From positions 1 through 38,380 of the forward strand of contig JACPTQ010000020.1 in NCBI GenBank assembly GCA_016192705.1: DNA of 38,380 nt, read 5' to 3'. The stretch comes from Deltaproteobacteria bacterium (lineage in GTDB: Bacteria; Myxococcota; JACPTQ01). The position numbers were made by a program, and so were the translations under genes. Shown in pieces: positions 16,140-38,380 of this stretch; the stretch's first letter is position 1; each line of letters starts with the position of its first letter. Below the pieces are notes generated by a model, which was not told where the DNA came from, made no database searches, and saw nothing but the letters and a program-made list of their open reading frames with translations.

Positions 16140-16556
16140 TCCGTTCGCATTATACGGGGGCGAGCGCCGTTCGCGAAATCAGTTACTCGTTCCCGGTCAA
16201 CGGCCAAGACCAGCGTCGGGCGGTCGGGTTTGGGCTCGCTCCGGCTCGCAAAAGTCCTCGGGTCTGACATGATATGTGAGTCTGCACGAAACGAATAAAA
16301 CATCATGAGAACGGCAATTCCACGCCCCATCGGCACCTCATCCCCTCCGGATGCGAGCCTCCGCTTGCCCAATCCCCGTCCGCCCAATCAGAATTCGGCC
16401 GTTTCCCTGGAACGGCGCTTGAGAGACTTGGGGGTCGATCGATCGTCAGCCGACACCTCAAATCAGACCCGAGGACGTCGGCGCGCCGAAGCGGGCTCCT
16501 GTCGACCCTCACGCTCACGAACGAACCAACCGCTTAACCGGGGATTGGGGACGAAA
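16140..16556. repeat. Gene-free repeat region, copy 1 of dispersed element C
   Basis: No supported gene in 417 bp. Segment A (16199-16267) matches 38091-38159 without gaps at roughly 85% identity. Segment B (16407-16455) matches 38164-38212 at 45 of 49 positions. In the second copy A and B are only 4 bp apart; here they are separated by 139 bp (16268-16406). Right of B, 16463-16498 is an inverted copy of the end of A (16232-16267): 14 bp perfect (GTCCTCGGGTCTGA / TCAGACCCGAGGAC) and 30 of 36 overall. The spacer holds its own small inverted repeat (CATGATATGT / ACATCATG, 16268-16277 and 16300-16307). This looks like a non-coding mobile or structured element. It lies between the divergently read start of the chemotaxis gene and the end of the lipoprotein gene. 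Confidence 0.75.
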
Positions 16557-17093
16557 TCAGTTGTTGGTCAAACTCGACAGCTTTCGAAACGAGATGAGTC
16601 CGTCGGGTGCGGCGAAGTAGTCCTTCGACTGCAAGCGAAACTCGCCCTCAACAATAATCCGAGCGCCGAGAAGCGGCGTCGCGGCCTCGGACGACGGAAT
16701 ATCGGCGATAACAACGCGCGCGTCGCCCGGATATGGCGTTTCGCGATCCGCAAGCACCAAGTGGTACCGATCGCAGCGCTTCATCCCCGAAACGCACCGC
16801 GGCGCCTCAACGACGTAGCCTTTGACCCGCGCGACAAATCCACCCTTCTCCGCTTCGAACCGTCGCTTCAGAAGTCCCCACACGGAAAACGCTTTCTCGT
16901 CTTCGTAGCGCGCCGGAATGCCGGGGGGCGTGGGGCGTGGGGCGATTGGCTTTTCGGGAAGCTTCACAGCGTGAATGGAAAGTGGTGGTCGCTTGACGTT
17001 GCCGTCCGTCGCTTTACAGGAAACGACGCCCGCAAAGAGAAGCGCGCCGCCAACGAACGCCGGGCGAATCCCATTCGCAAACCGACGCGTCAC
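16557..17093 (-). CDS. Small putative lipoprotein with OB-fold-like domain
   Basis: 178 residues from a GTG at 17093 that overlaps the upstream sulfatase stop as GTGA; the longer open frame (to 17138) runs inside the sulfatase gene and is rejected. The N-terminus (RRFANGIRPAFVGGALLFAG, then VVSC) looks like a lipoprotein signal with Cys about residue 26. After a Pro-rich linker, the region from about residue 80 has a strand-rich pattern (VARVKGYVVEAPRC, KRCDRYHLVLAD, ARVVIADIP, GARIIVEGEF) reminiscent of an OB fold with two cysteines close together. Function is unknown. It is last in the long minus-strand unit. Confidence 0.6.
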   Translation of the reverse strand: MTRRFANGIRPAFVGGALLFAGVVSCKATDGNVKRPPLSIHAVKLPEKPIAPRPTPPGIPARYEDEKAFSVWGLLKRRFEAEKGGFVARVKGYVVEAPRCVSGMKRCDRYHLVLADRETPYPGDARVVIADIPSSEAATPLLGARIIVEGEFRLQSKDYFAAPDGLISFRKLSSLTNN

Positions 17094-19132
17094 GGAGGCT
17101 CTCCCATCTCGGACCATTTCGGAAGGCCCGTCGTCCATTTGAGGAGCGTGCCGCGCATCGATGCGAATCGCGCCGCGTCCGATCGAACGAGGTTTTTCTT
17201 TTCGGCCGGGTCGACGACGTAGTTGAACATGACGAACGAATTCCGCGCTTCATGATAGATGAGTTTGAACGCGCCGTCGATCATCGCCTTTTGGCCCTGA
17301 ATGTGATTCTCCGGGAGAAGCTCCGCGAAAACGGGGCGAATCGCGGCGTTCGACTCGAAAAGATTCGTGCCGTGAAAAAGTGGATCGCGCGGCAAACCCG
17401 CGTGGAATGCGAGTGTCGGCGCGATATCAATGAGGCTCACCGGCCGATCGACGACGCGCGGCAATTCGCCGGGCACGCGGAAAATGAGTGGCACGCGAAG
17501 CTGTTCGTTGTGGAGCGTCTCCCCGTGGAATCTATGGCCGTGCTCGCCAAACGCTTCGCCATGGTCGGCCGTCACGACGACGATCGTTCGCCCCCAATCG
17601 GCGCGGCGCGCGAGAGCGTCGAACAATCGGCCGAGGTGTTTGTCGGTGAACGCTATTTCTTGGTCGTATCGATCGATGGTGCGGGCGCCGAACGACGCGA
17701 ACTCGGGGTGCGCGAGGTATTTTTGGTGCGGGTCAAAGTAGTGCGCCCAAAGGAAGAGCGGACGCGCCGGGCGCTTTGGCGACGCAAGGTAGGCGAGCAG
17801 CTTGTCGGTCACGAGGTGAGACGTCGGGCGACCAAACGCGACCTCGTCGTCGGTTGAGACGAGTGACGTGTCCCAGTGCTCAAAACCTTGGTTGATGTGG
17901 TTGTACTTCGCGAAGTAGGTGTGCGTCGCGATTCCCGCGGTGTGATAACCGGCCTCGCGGAGGCGCTCCGCAATGAGCCGGTTACCTGGGCGTAAGGGAA
18001 CGTACCGTGGCTTCGTCCAGTTGAGCGTCGATGCGTAACGCCCCGCAAAAAGCGCCGGCACCGACGGTTTTGTTTTGGTGTCGGCCGCAAACGCCCACTT
18101 AAAAACGACGGCGTGGTCACGCGCAAACCGATCGAGATTCGGCGACGTCGGGCGCGCGTACCCATAAACACCCAAATGGTCGGCGCGCATCGCATCGACC
18201 GTAATCAAAATGATGTTCGGTTTTTCGCCAGCAATGGGCAGCACACCCGCATCCGGCCCCGCTCCCGTTCTTTTGTCTTCCCTTGTTCCCTCCGTGTTTC
18301 CGTGTCTCCGTGGTGAATCTTCTCTTTCTTTCCCCGTACGCATCGCGCACTCAGCCGGCCCCACCTTCGGATTCGAATCGTCGCAATCACCACCGCCCAA
18401 AATCGTCGAGAACCCGTCGCGATCGCGATCCGCAAGTGATTGCCAAACGGACACGAGACGAGTCGCCACAAACCCGTGGCGATTGATCATCTCCGCGGCC
18501 GCATTTTGTCCGTCGAAAGTCGCGAGCGTTATTCCAGCCGCGCTCGCCAACACTCCGATGACCGCGACGAATCCCCAACGTTCACCGAGCGCGATCGCCC
18601 ATCGGCTGGGCAAAAAAGACGCGGCGGCAAAAGCAGCGATAAGGCACGCGGCGAAAAATGGAAGTGGCGGCGGCGACAAGTCGTAGAGTGAAAAAAGTCC
18701 CCACGTGGCGGCCGGAAGCGACATCAACAACACGCGGACCGACCATCGCGGCACCACAAGACGAATGCGACGCAGAGCACGAAACGCAAGCGCGGCACCA
18801 CAAAGCCCACTGAGCGCAACAACAGGCGAAGCCGCAGCGCCAACGGGTCGCACGGCGAACGTCGTCAGGGCCGCAACACCGCCGCCGAACGCCACGGCGA
18901 CAGAGAATCGGTATGCGCCTTCGTCAAGATGGGCGCTGCAGAATTGCGACACCTGCGAGATCAGGATCGCGAACCCGAACAGAATGGGCGCCATAAGCCC
19001 GAGCGTGTAAACGAAAACGACCGGCGCGAGGTCACCGCCACGAACCGTCGCAGCCACCGCCTCCACGAACGCCGTGAGCACGCCGCCCATGACCGCGTGG
19101 CCGAAAACTGCGCGACCGCTTGATGCCATCAA
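17090..19132 (-). CDS. Membrane-anchored sulfatase/alkaline-phosphatase superfamily protein
   Basis: 680 residues. An N-terminal domain (1-205) has about six or seven hydrophobic helices. Then comes a calcium-loop-like DRDGFSTILGGGDCDD (about 237-252), a repeat-derived linker (265-300), and a sulfatase-type catalytic domain from about 304: NIILITVDAMRADHLGVYGY with D313, and VVTADHGEAFGEHGHRFHG (about 519-537) with metal ligands D523/H524. The expected CxPxR or SxPxR formylglycine site is replaced by PSVPALFAG (S357, with Leu where Arg should be). A phosphotransferase or hydrolase of the wider alkaline-phosphatase superfamily is therefore as likely as a true sulfatase. The start is ATGATG at 19132/19129, 8 bp after the aroE stop. 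Confidence 0.8.
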   Translation of the reverse strand: MMASSGRAVFGHAVMGGVLTAFVEAVAATVRGGDLAPVVFVYTLGLMAPILFGFAILISQVSQFCSAHLDEGAYRFSVAVAFGGGVAALTTFAVRPVGAAASPVVALSGLCGAALAFRALRRIRLVVPRWSVRVLLMSLPAATWGLFSLYDLSPPPLPFFAACLIAAFAAASFLPSRWAIALGERWGFVAVIGVLASAAGITLATFDGQNAAAEMINRHGFVATRLVSVWQSLADRDRDGFSTILGGGDCDDSNPKVGPAECAMRTGKEREDSPRRHGNTEGTREDKRTGAGPDAGVLPIAGEKPNIILITVDAMRADHLGVYGYARPTSPNLDRFARDHAVVFKWAFAADTKTKPSVPALFAGRYASTLNWTKPRYVPLRPGNRLIAERLREAGYHTAGIATHTYFAKYNHINQGFEHWDTSLVSTDDEVAFGRPTSHLVTDKLLAYLASPKRPARPLFLWAHYFDPHQKYLAHPEFASFGARTIDRYDQEIAFTDKHLGRLFDALARRADWGRTIVVVTADHGEAFGEHGHRFHGETLHNEQLRVPLIFRVPGELPRVVDRPVSLIDIAPTLAFHAGLPRDPLFHGTNLFESNAAIRPVFAELLPENHIQGQKAMIDGAFKLIYHEARNSFVMFNYVVDPAEKKNLVRSDAARFASMRGTLLKWTTGLPKWSEMGEPP
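18248..18332. repeat. In-frame repeat insertion inside the sulfatase gene
   Basis: On the minus strand 18332-18272 contains CACCACGGAGACACGGAAAC followed by ACGGAGGGAACAAGGGAAGA. This is a tandem-like purine-rich repeat of a type I recall from many environmental bacterial genomes (recall, not checked). It is followed by hexamer units CGCATC, CGGCCC, CGCTCC (18248-18265, plus strand). Translated, it gives residues about 265-300 (HGNTEGTREDKRTG, GAGPDAG), placed exactly between the calcium-like loop and the catalytic domain. The reading frame is kept. Confidence 0.7.
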
Positions 19133-19140
19133 GCCAGGCC

Positions 19141-19932
19141 CTACCGAGCCGCGAGCGCGGCCTCGCGCATCACTTCGAGGGGGGCCGCGCGTTTCGTCCA
19201 GAGCTCGAACGACAGCGCCGCCTGGTGAACAAGCATCGGAAGACCGTCCTGCGTTCGCAAGCCGCCGGCCCGCGCCATCTCGATGAGCGCCGTCGACCGA
19301 TAAACCAAATCGACGACCAGCGCGCTTCGCGACAAGAGCTCAAGCGGCAACGCATCAAACGCATCGCCCTTCCAGCCGATCGGCGTGGCGTTGACAACAA
19401 GCTCCGCACCGCGAAGCGCTGCGTCGAAGTTCATCGTTGCCGTGATTCCAAAAAGCGCCGCGATCGCGTCGGCCCTTGGTGCCGAGCGGTTGACAACGGT
19501 GATGGGGTCAGCGCCCGCCCGTGCGAGCACACGCGCAACCGCCCGCGCAGCCCCACCCGCACCCAAAATCACCGCGTGTTTATCGTGCGGGTCGAACTCC
19601 ACTTCAGCGAGAGCCCGCGCAAACCCCTCGGCGTCGGTGTTGTAGGCGATGAGCTTCCGACCCTCGTGAACCACGCAATTCGCAGCACCGATCTCGCGTG
19701 CCGAGGCATCGACGTCGTCGACCAACCCGAGAACCGCTTCCTTGTGGGGGATTGTGATGTTGGCGCCACGACAATCGGCGTCACGAAGTCGCGCAATTTC
19801 TTGGCGAAGCATATCAGGCGGCGTCGGCCGCGCAGCGTACTCCCACGGAAAGTCGCACGCGCGAAAGGCGGCGGCGTGAATGGCGGGCGACAGCGTCGAT
19901 TCAAGCGGCCAACCGAGAATTCGCACGAGCAT
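19141..19932 (-). CDS. aroE: Shikimate dehydrogenase
   Basis: 263 residues. It catalyses NADPH-dependent reduction of 3-dehydroshikimate to shikimate in aromatic amino acid synthesis. The N-terminal substrate domain has WPLESTLSPAIHAAAF and the catalytic lysine in NITIPHKEAV (the family usually has NVTVPHK). AANCVV and AYNTDAEGF contain the conserved Asn and Asp. The nucleotide-binding loop is VILGAGGAARAVA and the cofactor segment VVNRS. The end has the conserved GLPMLVHQAALSFELWT. The ATG at 19932 shares a base with the stop of the upstream radical SAM gene (TGATG), so the two are coupled. Confidence 0.95.
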   Translation of the reverse strand: MLVRILGWPLESTLSPAIHAAAFRACDFPWEYAARPTPPDMLRQEIARLRDADCRGANITIPHKEAVLGLVDDVDASAREIGAANCVVHEGRKLIAYNTDAEGFARALAEVEFDPHDKHAVILGAGGAARAVARVLARAGADPITVVNRSAPRADAIAALFGITATMNFDAALRGAELVVNATPIGWKGDAFDALPLELLSRSALVVDLVYRSTALIEMARAGGLRTQDGLPMLVHQAALSFELWTKRAAPLEVMREAALAAR

Positions 19933-21023
19933 CAGTGGACGAGCCCAAGAATGTGGCGACGCCCCGACGTTCGATGCACTTGATTCGGATCAAAATGGCC
20001 CGCGATCGCCTTGCCGCACCCTGCGCATCTCCCGGCCGCATCGATCCGATACGACAAGATCGCATGCCAATCGCGCTCAATCACGGCGACTCCGCAAGCC
20101 GGGCAGTACGTCGTTTCACCTTCGATGTCATGAACATTTCCCACGTAAACGTAGCGGAGGCCGGTTTCGCACGCAATCCGCCGCGCGCGCGTGAGAGTCG
20201 CCGCGGGTGTCGGCGGTCGGTCGGTCATCTTGAAGTCGGGATGAAACGCCGTGAAATGGACCGGAACGTCGAGCCCCAATTCGCTCGCAACCCAAGTCGA
20301 CAGCGCGCGAACTTCGTCGTCCGAGTCGTTCAAGCCCGGAATGAGGAGCGTCGTAATCTCCGTCCAAACGTTGGTTTCGTGCACGAGCCAGCGCAAAGTC
20401 TCCTTGACCGGCTCAATGTGGGAGAGCGTTGTCTTTCGATAAAACTCCTCCGTGAACGCCTTGAGGTCGACGTTCACCGCATCAACAAATTCATACAGCT
20501 CGCCGCGCGCGCGTTCAGTCACATAGCCCGCCGTTACGAGAACGTTCTTGATTCCGCGCGAGCGCGCAATGCGCGCGACGTCGATGACGTATTCGGCCCA
20601 AATCACAGGGTCGTTGTAAGTGTACGCGATGGCCGGGCATCGCTGCCGCTCGGCGAGCGCGACAACCTCGTCGGGCGAAACCTCGCTCGACATCGCATTG
20701 TCGAGGCGCGCCTTTGAGATCGACCAGTTTTGGCAAAACTTGCAACCGAGATTGCAGCCTGCGGTTCCGAACGACAGGACGGGTGTACCTGGGTAGAAAT
20801 TATTGAGTGGCTTCTTTTCAATAGGATCTACCGCGAATCCCGTCGACCGGCCATACGCAGCTTGAATAAGGCGTCCACCCTCGTTCTTTCGAATAAAACA
20901 AAACCCGCTCTGCCCGTCGCCAATTTCGCATGTCCGCGGGCAAAGCTCACAAACGACACGATCGCCGTCGGTCCGCCACCATCTCGCCTCGTGATTGATG
21001 CTCGCTTTGTTGTCCCGCCCCAT
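19932..21023 (-). CDS. amrS: Radical SAM protein, AmrS / pyruvate formate-lyase activase-like
   Basis: 363 residues from the ATG at 21023, which overlaps the oxidoreductase stop as TGATG; a TTG one codon earlier is possible. The radical SAM [4Fe-4S] motif CNLGCKFCQNW is at about residues 90-100. An N-terminal cysteine set (CELCPRTCEI, SGFCFIR) is typical of the AmmeMemoRadiSam radical SAM family. Later come TYNDPVIWAEYVIDVAR and LIPGLNDSD. A C-terminal CPACG, then CAGCGK, suggests a small metal-binding knuckle. The substrate of this family is not established. The partner genes AMMECR1 and Memo are not in the window; its coupling to the aldehyde oxidoreductase hints at a joint role. Confidence 0.9.
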   Translation of the reverse strand: MGRDNKASINHEARWWRTDGDRVVCELCPRTCEIGDGQSGFCFIRKNEGGRLIQAAYGRSTGFAVDPIEKKPLNNFYPGTPVLSFGTAGCNLGCKFCQNWSISKARLDNAMSSEVSPDEVVALAERQRCPAIAYTYNDPVIWAEYVIDVARIARSRGIKNVLVTAGYVTERARGELYEFVDAVNVDLKAFTEEFYRKTTLSHIEPVKETLRWLVHETNVWTEITTLLIPGLNDSDDEVRALSTWVASELGLDVPVHFTAFHPDFKMTDRPPTPAATLTRARRIACETGLRYVYVGNVHDIEGETTYCPACGVAVIERDWHAILSYRIDAAGRCAGCGKAIAGHFDPNQVHRTSGRRHILGLVH

Positions 21024-27073: not shown

Positions 27074-27436
27074 CTACGCCCAAAAAAGGGCTGAAAGCTC
27101 ATCACGCTCCAGGGGACGCGTCAAGTAATAGAAAATACCGAGCTTCCTCAAGCGGAACTCGTCCTCGATCGAGCCGTTGCCTCGCGCGATCGGAACCACA
27201 CGCGCCCAAGGATCGCGCGCCTTTAGTCCCGCAATGGCGCGCTCGATCTCGACGAGCGGCGCATCGGCGTCGAGGAAGACAAGCTGATAATCGGCGAGGC
27301 CCGGGCTGTCATAAAGCTCGCCCGGCGCCTGGACGACATCAAGCTTGATTCGCGCGTTCGCCGTCGACCTCACAAACTCGCGCACGAGCGCCAAGTCCTC
27401 CGACAAGAGACAAACTTTGGGGGTCGGCTCAACCAT
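27074..27436 (-). CDS. Stand-alone receiver-like protein (atypical)
   Basis: 120 residues, one receiver-type domain with no output domain. The acidic pocket is reduced to SED (E13/D14), with phospho-acceptor candidate D56 in LVFLDAD. The conserved Thr is absent (VVPIARGNG), and the invariant Lys-Pro is Arg-Pro (YYLTRPLE, R107). It may therefore be a pseudo-receiver that does not follow the usual phosphorylation switch. Start ATG at 27436 without a clear ribosome site. The stop abuts the inverted-repeat element. No histidine kinase is nearby. A divergent single-domain regulator such as those used in motility or development is possible. Confidence 0.6.
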   Translation of the reverse strand: MVEPTPKVCLLSEDLALVREFVRSTANARIKLDVVQAPGELYDSPGLADYQLVFLDADAPLVEIERAIAGLKARDPWARVVPIARGNGSIEDEFRLRKLGIFYYLTRPLERDELSALFWA

Positions 27437-27618: not shown

Positions 27619-27691
27619 GCCGAGGTAGCTCAGTTGGTAGAGCAGCGCATTCGTAATGCGCGGGTCGGGGGTTCAAGTCCCCCCCTTGGCT
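27619..27691 (+). tRNA. tRNA-Thr (anticodon CGT)
   Basis: A complete cloverleaf of 73 nt. The acceptor stem is GCCGAGG with CCTTGGC (one G-U pair), the D arm GCTC/GAGC, the anticodon stem GCGCA/TGCGC with loop TTCGTAA (anticodon CGT, reads ACG), the variable loop GGGTC, and the T arm GGGGG/CCCCC with loop TTCAAGT. CCA is not encoded (TAT follows). A single-gene transcript from the promoter just upstream is likely. A 22-nt near-copy of its 3' end lies 337 bp downstream. Confidence 0.97.
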
Positions 27692-28034: not shown

Positions 28035-29651
28035 TCAATTGATTCCCAGTTCGCCGGTCGCCGCACACCGAGCCGTCTCTTCCGCTCGTCGAAGCGCATC
28101 GCCCACCGCGATAAACTCGAGCCGCTCCGCATCGCCCACGATTCCACCCCGAATGCGGCCAACCGCGATCCCGACCGCCGCAAATCGCACGCCTCGTCTT
28201 TCCGCGACGGTCCAGCGCGTCGCGACGAGCGCTTCAATCATCCCGAGAACGCCGTCCGCCGCGCGTTCCGCCGCCGCCCGCGCATCCCTTCGCGCATCCG
28301 GCAACCCAAACACCGCGAGAACGCCGCGCCCACTCGACGACACAATCGCCCCGAGCTCCTTGAACACGCTTTCAGCGACGAACTGCGAAAGCTGGTTCAT
28401 CATCGGCAGCGCTTCGCCCACCGGCAGCCGCGCAATTTCGCTCTGCAGCCCTTCCCAATCGACGAACATCGCCGCCGCATCGGTCTCCACCAAGAACTCG
28501 ACGCGCTCTCCTTTCGCCGGCCGCACGATCCGTTCAACGACCTCATTCGACACGAACCGCTCGAGCGTTGCGCGCCAACTCCGCTCGCGCAGCATCGCCT
28601 CCTTGAGCCGTGCCCGCTCAACCCCGCTCGCCGTCAAATGCGCGACGGGCCCTAAGAGGTCGAGAATCCCGGAGTCGAATTCGCCGGTCGATCGCGTCAA
28701 ATAGAGCACGCCCACCGCGTGCCCACCCTTCATCAGCGGCACACAAACCGCGCCACGAATGTCGAGCGCGACGATCGACTCGGACGCCATAAACCGTTGG
28801 TCCCGACGCGCATCGGCCGAGAAAATCGCGACACCACCCGCGACCGCGTCTTTCAGAACCGACCGCGAAATCGGAACGCCCTCCTTGGGAAGCGGCGCAA
28901 AGTGCCGCACAACGCGCGGAACGAGCTCGACGGCATCGCCCTCTGCGAGCAGCACGACGCCGGTGTCGGCCTGCGCAATTGCCATAACGAGGTCGAGCAC
29001 TTCGCCCAAAAACTCATCGAGTGACGTCGTGACGTTCAGCCGTTCGCTCACGCGCGACAGCAAATACATCCCGAGCAGCTCCTGCCGATCTTCTTCCCCG
29101 ACCGGCGATACCTCGGGCGCCATGAGGTCCTCGACCGAAACCCAGTCGAGGTTCCGATAGGCGTTCACGATCTTTCCCTCGACCGCGCGCGTGCTGGTCC
29201 TAAATTCCGACCGTTCGTCCGATTCGTCGAAAAACTGCACCATCGGGTTCCCCGTCGCCCCCGCGCCCGCATCGCCGCGAATTGCCACCATCCGCTGCGT
29301 CGAAGGCGCTTCGTCCATTGTCCCGCCCCGTCCCGAATCGGCCGCGTCCACCGCATCGTCCGGCGCGAGCCACATCACGAAATTCCCGATTTGAATCTGG
29401 TCGCCCACCGCCACCTCGCGCCGCCCAACGCGTTGCCCGTTAACCCACGTTCCGTTGTGGCTCTTCAAGTCACGAATCGCGCACCGGCCGTCGTGCAGCG
29501 AAACAACCGCGTGATGCCGCGACACAACTTCATTCGCGAGCACAATCTCGTTGTCCGGCGTCCGCCCCAAACGCATCTCGCCTTCGCGAAGCGCGAGCAC
29601 GCGCTCCGTGCGCCCCTTCTCCTTCCCGACTTCAACGATGATGAGCCGCAT
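28035..29651 (-). CDS. FHA-GAF protein with degenerate class III cyclase domain
   Basis: 538 residues. The N-terminal FHA domain (about 24-100) has the full phosphothreonine-binding pattern (RLGRTPDNEIVL, SRHHAVVS, SHNGTWVNGQRV). A GAF domain (about 205-365) is followed by a region like adenylate/guanylate cyclases (375-538). There the first metal Asp is kept (AAAMFVDWEGLQ), but the second metal site GDAVMAVFG is GRGVLAVFG and the catalytic Asn-x-x-x-Arg segment is altered (IAVGDALRRAEE). It is probably not an active cyclase. The ATG at 29651 overlaps the stop of the barrel gene as TGATG. Known FHA-cyclase proteins respond to Ser/Thr kinases; none is in the window. Confidence 0.82.
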   Translation of the reverse strand: MRLIIVEVGKEKGRTERVLALREGEMRLGRTPDNEIVLANEVVSRHHAVVSLHDGRCAIRDLKSHNGTWVNGQRVGRREVAVGDQIQIGNFVMWLAPDDAVDAADSGRGGTMDEAPSTQRMVAIRGDAGAGATGNPMVQFFDESDERSEFRTSTRAVEGKIVNAYRNLDWVSVEDLMAPEVSPVGEEDRQELLGMYLLSRVSERLNVTTSLDEFLGEVLDLVMAIAQADTGVVLLAEGDAVELVPRVVRHFAPLPKEGVPISRSVLKDAVAGGVAIFSADARRDQRFMASESIVALDIRGAVCVPLMKGGHAVGVLYLTRSTGEFDSGILDLLGPVAHLTASGVERARLKEAMLRERSWRATLERFVSNEVVERIVRPAKGERVEFLVETDAAAMFVDWEGLQSEIARLPVGEALPMMNQLSQFVAESVFKELGAIVSSSGRGVLAVFGLPDARRDARAAAERAADGVLGMIEALVATRWTVAERRGVRFAAVGIAVGRIRGGIVGDAERLEFIAVGDALRRAEETARCAATGELGIN

Positions 29652-37950: not shown

Positions 37951-38380
37951 CCGTGCCTCCCTTACGTTCCCAACCTTTACCGCGCCCGTGACCGCATCCG
38001 CAACCGCACCCGCATCCGCTCCCGTCTTGACGACCTCGCCTCGATCGTCCGCGCCTTGCCGCCGAGCGCAATTATCCTGGATCCCCGGATAACGGAGAAG
38101 ACTTCAGTGGGGCGGTCGGGGTTGCGCTCGCTCCGGCTCGCGGAAGTCCTCGGGTCTGATTTCCTGGAACGGCGGTTAAGAGACTTGGGGCTCGATCGAT
38201 CGTTAGCCGACATCCAGCAGGTGAACGCTTCGTACCACCCTCAAGGGCGAGGAATACGTACCGGGTAAGCGGTTCGTCCGGAGTTGCGTCGGGTTGGTAG
38301 GGGTGCCGCAACGGCGCGCCTCCGCAGGGTCTGCAGCGCAATATCGCTTGGAATCTCTGAGTTTTCGCACGCCGTGAAAC
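37951..38380. repeat. Gene-free right end: hexamer array and copy 2 of element C
   Basis: No supported gene. The region 37993-38022 holds five CGCNNC hexamer units (CGCATC, CGCAAC, CGCACC, CGCATC, CGCTCC). A hairpin TTATCC/GGATAA is at 38072-38092. Element C follows at 38091-38212: segments A and B are nearly contiguous here, whereas they are split at 16.2 kb. Beyond it, CCGGGTAAGCGGTTCGT (38261-38277) resembles, inverted, 16521-16541 of the first copy. The tal-pgi promoter must lie in the left part but is not obvious. Nothing is recognised from 38280 to the end. Confidence 0.7.

Follow-up and report, generated by a model that had tools for sequence, protein, structure and literature searches.

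As far as the reviews describe it, in-frame insertion of repeats on the scale reported here is known mainly from Rickettsia, which is obligately intracellular. The Rickettsia palindromic element (RPE) lies in frame in 19 reading frames, and the guanylate kinase product concerned is translated and active (PMC2229807); the portion of that account available to us names no parent gene for RPE. ERIC and Correia/NEMIS, according to similarly partial accounts, are non-autonomous inverted-repeat elements that can also fuse in frame with genes (PMC2229807, PMC10969869). To judge from what these two sources give, RPE is the nearest known kind to the repeat that we describe here.

The repeat lies in a window of 38,380 nucleotides (the whole stretch of DNA that was analysed) from a bacterium of the Myxococcota. 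On the minus strand, 17090-19132 encodes a sulfatase-family membrane protein of 680 codons counted from TTG, in an open frame of 749 amino acids, and its translation meets no stop through the repeat at 18275-18338. Read on the minus strand, the repeat is GAAGATTCACCACGGAGACACGGAAACACGGAGG and encodes residues 265-286 (TGKEREDSPRRHGNTEGTRED), before the catalytic domain (17396-18220, minus strand, residues 305-579), which matches the Pfam sulfatase profile PF00884 (4.6e-50, 171 bits) over positions 1-300 of 301. The first-pass annotation of this DNA had proposed an in-frame linker at 18248-18340, a range that corresponds to residues 265-295. Indeed the gene is open through the repeat. There is no sign of the frameshift or assembly error that was named there as the refuting case, and arms lie in other genes in the same way, as described below. 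At the likely nucleophile position the protein has T-K-P-S-V and not C/S-x-P-x-R, which we take to be the sulfatase nucleophile motif; judged by sequence, it may be a transferase-like member of the family instead of a true sulfatase. Within 16500-20000 of the window, no RNA family was matched at gathering score.

The linker had further been placed exactly between a calcium-binding-like loop and the catalytic domain. Its position ahead of the catalytic domain is correct, but the loop is not intact: the first half is present at 18368-18430 (minus strand, residues 235-255, DRDRDGFSTILGGGDCDDSNP), and the second half, NGxDxDCxG, is absent. In a comparison with homologues, the five distinct ones possessing the first half all carry the second as well. 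Native sulfatase sequence was thus lost beside the repeat, or was never there; we infer that the loss of part of the loop belonged to the insertion event.

Is the repeat real, or is it chance purine-rich coding sequence or an artefact of assembly? The window alone would allow the latter, since loose matches in it are at chance level (5 at <=3 mismatches versus 4.98 expected, the two best both being the sulfatase site). No other arm of this type stands out there by the general arm pattern. The genome-wide counts, however, are far above controls. The 14-mer CACGGAGACACGGA occurs 27 times with <=1 mismatch versus 5 times for the reversed control, a 20-mer of the repeat 16 times with <=3 mismatches versus none, and the general three-unit arm pattern 236 times versus 35. 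Given that the same structure is found at independent loci and contigs, we find chance or artefact hardly conceivable.

To count the repeat, which we call family A, we built a sequence-only model from an alignment of 33 copies (alignment A1). At E<=1 it picks out at least 149 matches in the genome of 5.21 Mb, a lower bound, as 150 of 733 candidates were scored. The window arm is matched at 18277-18335 (minus strand) with 45.7 bits, third among these matches; it is one of the 33 training copies, so its rank is not independent. The alignment distinguishes three subtypes by leader, GAGAAACCAC, GATTCACCAC and ACATGCACCAC, and the window copy, a single arm only, has a leader of the GATTC type. Its core (18290-18312, minus strand) consists of three CRCNRAG units, CACGGAG-A-CACGGAA-A-CACGGAG, and departs from the general arm pattern at one position. 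Elsewhere arms occur in plus/minus pairs, for example at C79:110248/110324, C65:38274/38337 and C47:33033/33098, among about a dozen close pairs listed. Many dispersed copies and terminal inverted repeats are characteristic of MITE-like elements, and the family shows both. That the repeat is one arm, or half, of a dispersed palindromic element is a point absent from the first-pass annotation.

How often the repeat lies in genes was also to be counted across the genome. Of the 149 matches 125 could be classified (22 weak ones were not fetched and two had too little flank), and 35 of these 125 are internal to an open reading frame that is coding to the left and right of the arm. An arm was taken as internal if the frame is open through it, if either flank has at least 25 codons and if both flanks have a coding score above 8, the score coming from our own dicodon gene model trained on 230 long open frames. 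In 33 of the 35 internal arms the purine strand is the sense strand and in two it is antisense (binomial p 4e-8). Frames across the arms are open more often in antisense (312 of 375) than in sense (227 of 375), so the bias is not due to stops on the other strand. The encoded peptides differ strongly: mean hydropathy is -2.34, very hydrophilic, in sense and +1.02, hydrophobic, in antisense. A bias of this kind suggests that selection acts on the peptide which the arm encodes.

The internal arms are also mostly without a recognisable partner. In a strict test, which superseded a looser one that allowed 2 mismatches, an inverted partner within 150 bases 3' was found for 4 of the 35 genic arms versus 28 of the 90 others; the far control gives 5 of 35 for genic arms and 6 of 90 for the others. 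Some genic arms are followed by hexamers. Ten of the 35 genic arms and 6 of the 90 others have an array of four or more GNNGCG units within 200 bases on their 3' side; on the 5' side none of the 35 and one of the 90 have one. Their position 3' of arms accounts for the CGCNNC hexamers that had been reported beside the sulfatase repeat. These are present directly 3' of the arm, at 18248-18265 (minus strand, GGAGCG-type, CGCNNC on the plus strand), but they are degenerate: the plus strand reads CGCATC CGGCCC CGCTCC, so that two of the three units are exact. More GNNGCG arrays occur in the window at 37995-38024 and 29256-29273 (-).

The distribution of arms bears on a different interpretation, in which the arm is a selected linker module that serves spacing, solubility or partner binding and has spread by its usefulness, perhaps through gene conversion. 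The strong sense bias would suit such a module, and so would the preference for positions between domains. The midpoint of the arm is inside a Pfam stretch for 6 of 32 arms versus 18.4 expected, and none of 5000 permutations was as low; the test covers 32 of the 35 arms (three are in proteins without a Pfam hit) and uses best stretches, which insertions can split, so the avoidance is overstated. The suggestion, made in the first-pass annotation, that such repeats sit at domain or loop boundaries is therefore right as a tendency, but some arms are intradomain, namely those in the DnaE finger, UvrC and the asparaginase. Against a favoured module, random 60-base positions pass the internal test in 978 of 1500 cases, evenly on both strands (488 to 490), versus 35 of 125 for arms. 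Arms are under-represented in genes, and strand-biased when genic, as is the case for tolerated insertions, and this depletion is more readily explained by purifying selection on insertions than by a favoured module. Moreover, internal arms use all three sense frames, and the functions of their hosts have no obvious common theme. The sulfatases themselves can be argued both ways. Three paralogues carry element DNA at one protein position, which would suit a module, but the DNA belongs to different families: A in the window gene, and in the paralogues at C62 and C24, in the same linker and in frame, family B. Family B elements are full palindromes of the CGCAAAG type; of 22 that were examined (from 20 regions taken as listed, and the known L075), 21 are paired and 7 lie in frame inside genes. 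Taken together, we think a selected module improbable.

In our opinion it is quite probable, instead, that the linker is one half of a MITE-like element, tolerated in place and translated; the likely parent is an element with a GxxExxY gene. In this course of events, a small palindromic element would have inserted into the stretch that separates the membrane part of the sulfatase-family protein from its catalytic domain, with loss of part of the calcium-like loop, and its second arm and loop sequence would have been lost during or after insertion. The remaining purine-rich arm would now be read as a charged, probably disordered linker. It would persist owing to the very hydrophilic peptide specified by its sense strand and to its site, a linker that tolerates changes in length. 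Dozens of genes in this genome, essential ones among them, would have undergone the same process.

The 35 internal arms sit in 33 proteins, for which the gene names are our reading of Pfam sets. They include Der/EngA, the DNA polymerase III alpha subunit (DnaE), CarB, ThrS, ProS, UvrA, UvrC and GrpE, and further an Asparaginase_2 protein, a CheA-like kinase, two HlyD proteins and one further sulfatase. Such in-frame location inside unrelated conserved protein genes, for 35 of 125 arms, is RPE-like. The only full-length copy of ThrS in the genome is the arm-bearing one, with 21 extra residues at the arm relative to the E. coli structure 1qf6. Compared with solved homologues, DnaE has 15 extra residues at the arm, Der has a linker there that exceeds theirs by about 37 residues, ProS has an extra stretch between its two aligned parts, and the asparaginase has about 30 residues added just before residue 195, the start of the beta chain in homologues. 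In CarB (L108:330-3494, plus strand; arm at residues 466-485) part of the oligomerisation domain is missing, and the protein has 1054 residues versus 1073. Since native sequence is missing at the arm in both CarB and the sulfatase, simple insertion is not the whole explanation. A separate case is L110:1385-3325 (plus strand), a single frame with Tpt1/KptA-like, NUDIX and GCV_T-like parts and an arm at residues 300-318 before the GCV_T part; possibly it is a gene fusion made through the arm.

A protein need not contain what its gene does. The insert could be excised from RNA, as 23S rRNA intervening sequences are, and the protein would then never have it. Full elements do form long hairpins (the full palindrome in L103 folds strongly, z -8.35), and the genome has 35 matches to PF05635, the 23S intervening-sequence protein, on contigs C19, C3, C76, C10, C27 and others. 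However, the fold of the window half-copy is nothing unusual (z 0.59), the reading frame stays open through internal arms and specifies matching peptides, and at the two PF05635 loci examined, L328 and L329, no family A arm lies around the gene. We consider excision very unlikely. The PF05635 elements also seem an unlikely parent of family A, to judge by L328, where the repeats are different: the gene there is bracketed by inverted repeats of the GGTCCAGG and GGTCCAGGTCCA types. At L329 a family B-type pair lies about 0.3-0.4 kb past the gene. Many of the PF05635 matches consist of a strong hit with a partial one on the opposite strand about 70 bases further along, and these loci form a second expanded small-element system in the genome.

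The likely parent of family A, as far as sequence can tell, is an element with a GxxExxY gene (PDDEXK_3, PF13366) between two arms. There is one parent-like copy, on contig C31, where the sole strong PF13366 gene of the genome (27261-27614, minus strand, 148 bits) is flanked by arm matches at 27182-27228 (plus) and 27624-27681 (minus), with two clear units each; the frame itself opens with a translated arm (MGMEEGSNHRDTE). The arrangement extends far beyond this genome. Among 80 named GxxExxY loci from many phyla, the best 80 of 129 relatives, 70 have inverted CRCNNAG arms both upstream and downstream within 200 bases, scored as at least two units per side. Control windows 1 kb off have both arms in none of 62 cases and a single arm in 3 and 1. 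The inverted-repeat score exceeds all 50 shuffles at 67 of 79 loci (L156 was dropped), versus 24 of 79 in the direct comparison. An alignment of the homologues (alignment A2) holds 45 of the 80; L190, which has a stop, L167 and L175 were left out, and the rest were not chosen. The GxxExxY loci L226, L228 and L207 have near-perfect inverted ends of about 80-90 bases, and from this appearance they are candidates for recently active elements.

The protein is consistent with such a role. Its AlphaFold model is confidently of the PD-(D/E)XK type (pLDDT 91), and the nearest structure is SSO0001 (Z 10.7, rmsd 3.1, 98 aligned), with Holliday-junction resolvases among many tied rows of the structure match. 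By sequence, no solved homologue of the GxxExxY protein was found at E<=1, and none for L119 in the PDB at E<=1e-100. We infer that the GxxExxY nuclease mobilises the arms. In the literature we found no description of GxxExxY, PDDEXK_3 or PF13366 genes bracketed by CRCNNAG arms, so the link of these genes to the arms, and the scale of in-frame insertion in this genome, look new.

One can accept a mobile element and still doubt its engine: the GxxExxY gene might be a passenger or old invader, with another enzyme moving the arms. A single strong GxxExxY gene faces at least 149 arm matches, which favours this, and the phylum offers evidence in both directions. Over 195 genomes arm counts are near control except in five, our own (101), G063 (198), G064 (204), G059 (89) and G068 (78), and PF13366 is present in four of these five versus 11 of the 190 others (Fisher p = 1e-4). 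The exception, G059, has no PF13366 hit in an assembly that is 61% complete. The 11 arm-poor genomes, on the other hand, have the gene and no arm expansion, and at 13 of the 17 PF13366 loci of the phylum search the three-unit arm is absent, C31, with its two clear units, being among the 13. Against a passenger stands the bracketing of the gene at 70 of 80 named loci, together with the absence of the RAYT family, a mobiliser that we tried and rejected, as PF01797 (Y1_Tnp) has 0 matches in the genome. In our opinion a passenger is a real possibility, if somewhat doubtful. In-gene sense arms were not reproduced in the four other arm-rich genomes: 5 of 20, 2 of 18, 0 of 8 and 1 of 13 arms are internal there, and the pooled 8 of 59 comprise 5 sense and 3 antisense, with no clear sense bias.

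Movement itself may be seen in one intergenic event in genus g49, another genus than that of the window genome. In G063 an element of this superfamily lies between two genes, and the orthologous sites in G058, G060, G061, G062 and G064 are empty (the alignment used 6 of 9 searched genomes). On a wider scale we would tentatively suggest, without claiming that it is the likelier outcome, that GxxExxY proteins are the mobilising nucleases of unrecognised cross-phylum elements with CRCNNAG inverted ends, whose palindromes and half-palindromes, readable in most frames, steadily seed in-frame linkers, including in essential enzymes. The arm formula ties GxxExxY, a common orphan family, to a testable mobile-element role. 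Judged by the same formula, NHGDTE, TTKDTK, QRRKDAETQR and many similar stretches of low complexity, which presumably occur in database proteins, would be translated element arms.

Compared with the described systems, family A shares with RPE, as far as the account of the latter goes, the in-frame presence of small palindromic repeats in conserved protein genes that are numerous and unrelated; here, in a 5.2 Mb genome, the genes with such insertions extend to those of tRNA synthetases, of the replicative polymerase and of a GTPase for ribosome assembly. It differs from RPE in its sequence, being made of CRCNNAG units, in that nearly every genic copy is half an element and has the same orientation, and in that a candidate parent gene is identified. 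With the ERIC and Correia/NEMIS MITEs, as partially described, it has in common non-autonomous inverted repeats and in-frame fusion with genes, but the repeats here flank a PDDEXK_3 gene instead of a classical transposase and are patchy over many phyla. In REPIN/RAYT systems, short inverted repeats are dispersed in pairs and the genome has one putative mobiliser gene, as is the case in the present system. Instead of PF01797, however, it has a nuclease-fold gene between its arms, and this gene, on C31, is by its match to PF13366 a member of the GxxExxY/PDDEXK_3 family.
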